37,666 bases of DNA from Methanomassiliicoccales archaeon (GTDB lineage: Archaea; Thermoplasmatota; Thermoplasmata; GCA-020350865): contig CP070739.1 in the NCBI GenBank assembly GCA_020347705.1, positions 2,541,158-2,578,823 on the forward strand. Direction: 5' to 3'. The translations under genes and the position numbers were made by a program. The notes beneath the pieces are model-generated. The model did not search any database and was not told the DNA's origin. It saw only the letters and a program-made list of their open reading frames with translations. Numbering within the stretch: the first letter of the stretch is position 1; each line of letters begins with the position of its first letter. This document shows positions 29,634-31,711 of the stretch, in pieces.

Positions 29634-30521
29634 ATGGAACTCGAAATTTTAGAATTGACGGATACAAAAGCAAAGTTCATCGTCTCCGAAATATCACCTC
29701 CAGCTATCAATGCACTGAGAAGGACGTTGATTGCGGATGTCCCAAAGATGGCCATCGATAATGTGGAATTTCACCTTGGTCCCATCAGAAACGAGCACGG
29801 GAAGGAATATGAAAGTATCACTCCATTATTCGATGAGATCATTGCCCACAGACTTGGAATGGTTCCCATTCCCACTGATCTTGATTTATTCGTATTCAGA
29901 GATGATTGCGTTTGCAAAGGAGAGGGATGCCCGAATTGTACCATCATGTACTCCCTCAATAAAAAGGGCCCGTCAGAGGACGATAAGAAGGAAAATCTTA
30001 CCGTATATTCCGATGAATTGCAGCTTGTGGTCCAAAAGGTTGAAGGAGTTTCCGAGAAAAAATATGCTGAAAAGTTCCAAATCAATAAAAAAATACCTCT
30101 TGTTAGGTTGAACAAGAGCCAGGCATTATTACTATATGCCACAGCTGAATTGGGCAGGGGAAACGACCATGCAAAATGGCAGGTAGCACAGGCGGTGGGT
30201 TACCAGTATTATCCAATCATAAATATCGATAAAAAGAAATGTGACAGCGGTGGCTCATGTGTGGAAAGCTGCCCCAAAAATGTACTTGAGCAAAAGAAAA
30301 AGGAAATCATTGTTGCTAATCTGGAGAATTGTAATATGTGTGGAACTTGCGAAGAGGTGTGTTCCCTTGGGGCTGTCAAAGTTGATGGCGACGATTCAAA
30401 GTTCATTTTCCAATTCGAAACCGATGGGGCGCTCTCCGCAAAAGAGGCTATAACCCGGGCACTGGTCATTTTGGAGGATGAGTTCGAGGAATTGCGTGAT
30501 CTGGCAGGCAAACTAAAATAA
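29634..30521 (+). CDS. rpoD: DNA-directed RNA polymerase subunit D (Rpo3) with ferredoxin-like domain
   Basis: Rpo3 is the archaeal alpha-like assembly subunit, 295 residues. The dimerisation part shows SPPAINALRRTLIADVPKMA; a zinc-type loop DCVCKGEGCPNC is at about 91-102. A ferredoxin-like insert spans about 200-250. Its second motif is complete (C233, C236, C239, C243), while the first has C203, C209 and C213 but Gly206 where the second cysteine belongs, so only one 4Fe-4S cluster should form. The conserved C-terminal helix ends LRDLAGKLK. The downstream partners rpl18e, rpl13, rps9 and rpoN common in archaea are absent. Confidence 0.97.
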   Translation: MELEILELTDTKAKFIVSEISPPAINALRRTLIADVPKMAIDNVEFHLGPIRNEHGKEYESITPLFDEIIAHRLGMVPIPTDLDLFVFRDDCVCKGEGCPNCTIMYSLNKKGPSEDDKKENLTVYSDELQLVVQKVEGVSEKKYAEKFQINKKIPLVRLNKSQALLLYATAELGRGNDHAKWQVAQAVGYQYYPIINIDKKKCDSGGSCVESCPKNVLEQKKKEIIVANLENCNMCGTCEEVCSLGAVKVDGDDSKFIFQFETDGALSAKEAITRALVILEDEFEELRDLAGKLK

Positions 30522-30628
30522 CCTCCACCTTTTTTTAATCCTCAGCAGGTTCTCGCATACGATATCGATTCATCTGCTTTTTTAAAAGACGGGCATCGTA
30601 AATTCTATCTGCTTTTAAGTGATACGTA

Positions 30629-30693
30629 TTGCGCCACGATGAAGAAGAACGCTAATCTGAAAGATGATGAGTGATGGGCGATCTGAGTGGCAA
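30629..30693 (+). ncRNA. candidate C/D box sRNA guiding 2'-O-methylation
   Basis: All boxes occur in order with archaeal spacings. Box C is ACGATGA (30636-30642, one change from RUGAUGA). The first guide is 14 bases, followed by box D' CTGA (30657-30660) and a 3-base spacer. Box C' is ATGATGA (30664-30670), followed by a 12-base guide (30671-30682) and box D CTGA (30683-30686). The flanks TTGC...CCAC and GTGGCAA can pair as a terminal stem. The second guide, GTGATGGGCGAT, is complementary to the universal 16S sequence ACCGCCCGUCA, with one G-U pair and one mismatch near the end. The fifth base from box D (30678) faces C1402 (E. coli numbering). Confidence 0.65.
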
Positions 30694-30787
30694 CCTCAGG
30701 TTATTCAACGACCTTGACTAAGCGAGTCTCTCTTCCATATTACCGAAATTCATTAATACAATCTTATCGGTATACTCGCTGATATTG

Positions 30788-31711
30788 ATGGCAAGGCTAG
30801 AGGGCGTTGAATTTCTTTCTTTAGATAAAACCGAAGACCAACTCGTTTTAGTGGTATTCGCTTGCCTTATCATTTCCTTTTTTTTCGGCCTTCAGCCCGG
30901 AGGATTGTACGCCATTTTGTGGGCGGCCACAGGTCTGGCAGCCCTAATCTGCATATATTTCGCCTTTCCCCATATGTGGCAGTCCGGGCTGCTTTTATAT
31001 GCTAGCTACGGAATCTCTGCCTTCGGGGTGATTTTTATCGTCTTTTGGTATGACTTGGTGATGTTATTTGGGATTTCCATCCCCTTGTTGATCGGGTTTT
31101 TTTTTATTGCATCTGCATTTTATATAGCTTTCCACATCATTCAAAATATCAAGAAGGTTAGAGATGCGTCAGTAAAGAAAGATGGTTATCCTACCCTGGG
31201 TTTTTGGAGTATAGGGGTATTTTCCTTCGTCATTTTTTCGATTCTGTCCATCCTAGGTTGGGCATTATGGGCCGACTCGGGTGGAGGGGGGATTCGATTC
31301 TACCAAATCTTTGAGCCAGTGATCGCATTCCTGCTGGTTTATACTCTATGGCTTCCGGACAGAAATATCGACTGGAGCGGCGAAAAACTGCCAGAATCAA
31401 CGGCCGCGAAGTTCATTACCGATAAATCCAAGGCCATAAGGAAAAAGGTTGTAATGACGAAAAAGATCTGCCCCGAGTGTGGCTCGAAGTTAAGGATTGA
31501 GAAAAAGATATGTCCATCCTGCAACAACACCCAGAAATTCGGTTGGTGTGTGACTTCCGAAGCTTATGTCCTACCCTGTACCAAATGCGGGAGCATGTCC
31601 CTTTATGGGAAGGAAAAATGCAGCCAGTGCCAAAATCAACTCTTTGATAAAGTTGTATGCAGTGCCTGCCAAAAGGCATTTCCAATAAAGGAATGGATTG
31701 TTGAAACCTGA
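30788..31711 (+). CDS. multi-helix membrane protein with C-terminal zinc ribbons
   Basis: I use the ATG at 30788; there is no ribosome site. The 307 residues begin with about six hydrophobic helices between residues 15 and 195. A basic linker (SKAIRKKVVMTKK) leads to a cysteine-rich tail with five CxxC pairs: CPEC, CPSC, CTKC, CSQC and CSAC, plus a single Cys in FGWC. These look like double-zinc-ribbon modules and should lie in the cytoplasm. No family is recognised beyond that; scaffolding or regulation at the membrane is a guess. It stands alone downstream of the sRNA candidate. Confidence 0.82.
   Translation: MARLEGVEFLSLDKTEDQLVLVVFACLIISFFFGLQPGGLYAILWAATGLAALICIYFAFPHMWQSGLLLYASYGISAFGVIFIVFWYDLVMLFGISIPLLIGFFFIASAFYIAFHIIQNIKKVRDASVKKDGYPTLGFWSIGVFSFVIFSILSILGWALWADSGGGGIRFYQIFEPVIAFLLVYTLWLPDRNIDWSGEKLPESTAAKFITDKSKAIRKKVVMTKKICPECGSKLRIEKKICPSCNNTQKFGWCVTSEAYVLPCTKCGSMSLYGKEKCSQCQNQLFDKVVCSACQKAFPIKEWIVET

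Follow-up and report, generated by a model that had tools for sequence, protein, structure and literature searches.

The window analysed here, a 37,666-nucleotide stretch contained in a single-contig Thermoplasmata genome, carries a small RNA element on the + strand (30633-30691), located between rpoD and an ORF of unknown function. The nearest named record found, CP070751.1, belongs to the same genus as the window genome. The element reads GCCAC-G-ATGAAGA-AGAACGCTAAT-CTGA-AAG-ATGATGA-GTGATGGGCGAT-CTGA-GTGGC, and there is strong support for it encoding a box C/D guide sRNA of ~60 nt. The features of the locus are as follows, with rpoD being the upstream neighbour and lying outside the sRNA.

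29634..30521, + strand: rpoD, RNA polymerase subunit D with a 4Fe-4S domain (Pfam RNA_pol_L, RNA_pol_A_bac and Fer4)
30594..30631, + strand: conserved stretch directly 5' of the sRNA, 84% identity with the same-genus genome, putative promoter
30633..30637, + strand: terminal K-turn stem, 5' arm GCCAC, covarying pairs in 46 distinct sequences
from 30638, + strand: 3-nt bulge GAT, formed by G30638 and the first box C bases, placed by the covarying stem register
30639..30645, + strand: box C, ATGAAGA, register set by the covarying stem
30646..30656, + strand: D' guide AGAACGCTAAT, 11 nt, weak candidate target at 16S ~1082, varies between families
30657..30660, + strand: box D', CTGA, from the sequence, invariant among relatives
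30664..30670, + strand: box C', ATGATGA, from the sequence, kept in relatives
30671..30682, + strand: D guide GTGATGGGCGAT, 12 nt, found in 106 of 400 class genomes, probable target 16S C1402 (9 pairs), alternatively 23S C2558 (10 pairs)
30683..30686, + strand: box D, CTGA, from the sequence, invariant among relatives
30687..30691, + strand: terminal K-turn stem, 3' arm GTGGC, covarying pairs

The 38-base stretch immediately upstream of the sRNA contrasts with the spacer that precedes it, for which identity to the same-genus genome is 35%, and its conservation suggests that it is probably the sRNA promoter. A separate 48-base block (30743-30790), lying before the following ORF, shares 96% identity with its same-genus counterpart, compared with 68% for the rpoD 3' end; this block is probably the promoter of the ORF that follows the sRNA.

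The four boxes occur in order, with D', C' and D exact, and both guides are close to the ~12 nt common for archaeal box C/D sRNAs (12 nt before D, 11 nt before D'). The D', C' and D boxes, the 3-nt D'-C' spacer (AAG) and the 12-nt C'-D spacer are all as given in a preliminary description of this DNA. Box C, on the other hand, had been placed three bases too early in that account. In relatives, the covarying stem stops one base 5' of box C (RTGATGA), and comparison with 45 other distinct sequences thus fixes the window box C at 30639-30645. The alternative register, ACGATGA, was rejected because the bulge would then contain CAC, which belongs to the stem. The corrected box C consequently shortens the D' guide to 11 nt, in place of the 14 nt (30643-30656) previously proposed. 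The resulting K-turn consists of the GCCAC:GTGGC stem, the GAT bulge and tandem G-A pairs. Box C, AUGAAGA, is one base off the RUGAUGA consensus, with A replacing U at the fifth base, in contrast to known archaeal box C/D sRNAs; the same ATGAAGA is found at locus L141 in the same genus and at L143 in another family.

Since the boxes are short and Rfam yields no match for the element at gathering thresholds, the possibility that the boxes had come together in a spacer by chance, with no RNA gene present, had to be considered. A four-box scan of the 37.7-kb window identified this as the single such element on the + strand. A looser scan of 864 kb of DNA gave 12 matches (5 of them copies of this element within the genus), compared with 1 in the reversed sequence. 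Alignment of the spacer following rpoD with that of the same-genus genome reveals the element at the same position with the boxes kept and identity at 58 of the 61 bases from 30632 to 30692 (95%), whereas 35% of bases match in the initial part of the spacer and 28% in the 50 bases that follow the element. Across the class, the pattern of box C', conserved D guide and box D is matched in 106 of 400 Thermoplasmata genomes, spanning 17 of the 35 families sampled (our own count), while the reversed pattern gave 0 control matches in the same 400 genomes. In G002, a genome of the same order, the rpoD region showed no matching sRNA.

The terminal stem provides a further line of evidence. Among 46 distinct sequences, aligned by their boxes as opposed to by folding and with many rows derived from family f10, 89.9% of cells are paired compared with 52.7% after shuffling, and two-sided changes occur in all six pairs. 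The covariation score of 0.837 exceeds both the shuffled value (0.196, with 0 of 500 shuffles reaching that observed), a control that ignores relatedness, and that of slid partners (≤0.164), a control that retains it. A covarying terminal stem of this kind is strong evidence for an RNA. Below threshold, Rfam returned matches from numerous C/D families, the best with E = 7.6e-5. Class-wide conservation and the covarying stem refute the chance arrangement, which we regard as wholly improbable.

The genome itself encodes fibrillarin (G000 C1:2460408-2461046, E = 1.2e-80), and this, together with conservation in genus and class and the covarying K-turn stem, bears out the initial assignment as a C/D box sRNA. 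The element resembles archaeal box C/D sRNAs (Rfam RF00095 snoPyro_CD and the sR families) in having four boxes, a K-turn terminal stem, two ~12-nt guides and D+5 target selection. Its best Rfam score, for RF00095, is 31.1 bits and thus fails to reach the 45-bit gathering cut-off, for which reason the element is not filed under that family. Two further own-genome matches to the strict C-D'-C' pattern (C1:215340-215369 and 2698275-2698305; L169 and L170) might represent additional C/D sRNAs.

Searches by family and by pattern found neither a 16S nor a 23S gene in the window genome's assembly; target pairing was read from relatives' rRNA, where the guide shows complementarity with a target at D+5 in both subunits (C1402 and C2558). 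The same-genus 16S (L117; G001 C1:690000-694500) is a 3' fragment only, joined across 100 N to unrelated sequence, which indicates a break in that assembly at the rRNA. On this fragment (CACACCGCCCGTCAAACC), the D guide forms nine continuous pairs, including one G-U, with 16S 1400-1408. The number of pairs agrees with the preliminary description, although the segment is not 1399-1408 as stated there. The box D+5 rule indeed selects C1402, in helix 44 at the decoding centre, when applied to the same 16S. However, the fact that the match was not sought in advance does not make chance less likely: shuffled 12-nt guides reach nine pairs (with at most one G-U) somewhere in 16S and 23S in 22.8% of trials, and we therefore rejected the rRNA match on its own as evidence. 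The significance of the D guide derives from its conservation and not from the pairing. Pairing alone is thus insufficient to prove C1402 as the target, yet C1402 is the probable one.

It was found that the same guide also pairs with 23S 2555-2564 over ten positions, again with one G-U (TTCGCCCATTAA, from the same-order genome G002), in a segment beginning in the A-loop. Here D+5 corresponds to C2558, beside the A-loop, a site that the preliminary description had missed. Positions were numbered manually by reference to U2552 and C2556, which are bases one and five of the A-loop (PMC4644070). Hence, while C1402 remains the best-supported target across the class, it does not stand as the sole candidate, given the longer pairing at C2558 (10 versus 9). 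C2558 is a plausible second site in lineages such as that of the window.

The D guide could alternatively serve 23S C2558, in the A-loop stem (helix 92), with C1402 not a target and the 16S match a by-product of a shared CGCCC core. In addition to the longer helix, which counts against the C1402 explanation, the A-loop region is a known hotspot of archaeal methylation (PMC4644070). Three positions of the guide, numbered backwards from box D, discriminate 16S from 23S, namely 2, 8 and 10. Position 2 is A in nearly all guides other than those with G described below; it mismatches 16S C1399 and pairs with 23S U2555, in line with a 23S target and at odds with C1402. Position 8, left free in the class search, is solely T or C, both of which pair with 16S G1405. 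In ten genomes of families f6, f12 and f33, position 8 is C and 23S retains A2561; the C-A opposition reduces the 23S helix to 6-7 pairs, whereas the 16S helix is Watson-Crick throughout. Position 2 nevertheless remains A in these three families, and as it persists where the 23S pairing is broken, it does not track 23S and is not decisive. One genome (G008) combines C at position 8 with a matching G2561 in 23S, as a 23S target would predict, and fits both sites.

At position 10, 106 genomes carry G, which is Watson-Crick to 16S C1407 and a wobble to 23S; with positions 8 and 9 left free, all position-10-G guides still pair with 16S 1400-1408. In contrast, 12 genomes of family f10 have A at position 10 and G at position 2. 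These guides mismatch C1407, leaving eight 16S pairs, and fit 23S better, which argues against C1402 and for C2558. The 5 of these 12 that were read out all share their relatives' D' guide, AGAACCAG, and so look like the same gene changed; one genome (G212) carries both guide versions. The paired positions of the 16S target segment are unchanged in all genomes read except for position 1404 in genus g20. In four genomes of this genus (family f10), 1404, adjoining the target, is U and not C while the guide keeps its G, which would pair with U1404 by wobble.

At least eight continuous pairs are retained at the 16S site in every lineage seen. As this is true of 16S alone, C1402 is favoured, and evolution on the whole favours 16S, with some genomes of one family (f10) instead drifting towards 23S. 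An exclusive role at C2558 is accordingly unlikely in our view. A combined possibility, to which we lend tentative credence short of an even chance, is that a single D guide reads two universal CGCCC-core sites, 16S C1402 and 23S C2558, with lineages carrying C at position 8 specialised on 16S, those with A10 and G2 on 23S, and G212 provided with both.

A role outside either rRNA was also weighed, in which the element is a C/D or K-turn RNA retained for some different function, for example a non-rRNA target or binding of L7Ae, and both rRNA pairings are non-functional. The rRNA match is by itself within chance, and many RNAs have K-turns that are bound by archaeal L7Ae (PMC5539422). However, the D guide stays near-invariant in 17 families, in contrast to the freely varying D' guide, implying selection on the D guide sequence itself, and in all cases this guide matches one or more universal rRNA sites with the D+5 base correctly placed. 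Such a role is therefore very improbable.

The D' guide differs between families. Its best site common to the genus is 16S GGCGUUCU, with 8 pairs and a target G near E. coli 1082 (numbered by hand), although 37-44% of shuffled D' guides do equally well in 16S and 23S. For the D' target that the preliminary description left unrecognised, 16S ~1082 is thus a weak candidate; the D' guide length given there was wrong. Family f10 (L144-L168, L180-L183 and L197) shows strong conservation of its own D' guide, AGAACC(A/G)G; for this guide, AGAACCAG, no target was found in the 16S or 23S of one member.

In archaeal C/D RNPs, L7Ae binds the K-turns, followed by Nop5 and fibrillarin, with one methyl group placed per guide at D+5. 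By analogy, L7Ae would bind the K-turns of this sRNA, and Nop5 and fibrillarin would assemble on it. The D guide would then pair with 1400-1408 of 16S helix 44 and, under the D+5 rule, probably direct 2'-O-methylation of C1402. In this lineage the same guide could form a second duplex with 23S 2555-2564, next to the A-loop, with C2558 at D+5, while the lineage-specific D' guide may act on 16S ~1082. RsmI is the bacterial 2'-O-methyltransferase for nucleotide 1402; in bacteria this nucleotide is modified to m4Cm1402 by the stand-alone protein enzymes RsmI and RsmH instead of a guide RNA. No RsmI match was found in the window's own genome or in 12 relatives, and a protein enzyme in place of the guide was rejected for C1402.

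Methylation at this nucleotide has precedent. In a 2024 review, bacterial Cm1402 shares a row with Cm in yeast, human and plants and with Cm1369 of the archaeon Pyrococcus abyssi, which corresponds to E. coli Cm1402 (PMC11542601, Table 2); the Haloarcula cell is empty in its Table 1. The plant C/D snoRNA AtU43 (At1gCDbox192), comparable by target site although eukaryotic, guides methylation of the same nucleotide at 18S Cm1645 (PMC11542601). As the review lists Cm there for P. abyssi, the C1402 site is not new, and the kind of gene and the methylation site are both already known. A seven-species archaeal survey describes helix 44 predictions as sparse, with A1408 and G1494 named in the text (PMC4644070), and a survey of archaeal C/D guides lists no target site common to all seven of its species (PMC7994747). 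In contrast to known archaeal box C/D sRNAs, the D guide described here is retained across the whole class. A limited literature search found no description of the class-wide guide conservation or of the two-site ambiguity.

Bacteria use a protein and plants a snoRNP to ribose-methylate C1402; together with the presence of this guide in 17 families of one archaeal class, this suggests strong selection on the mark in all three domains. The two-site ambiguity provides a clear way of testing if a single guide is able to act on both ribosomal subunits. If the reading of both sites is true, the element would represent a dual-target guide caught in the process of splitting its function.
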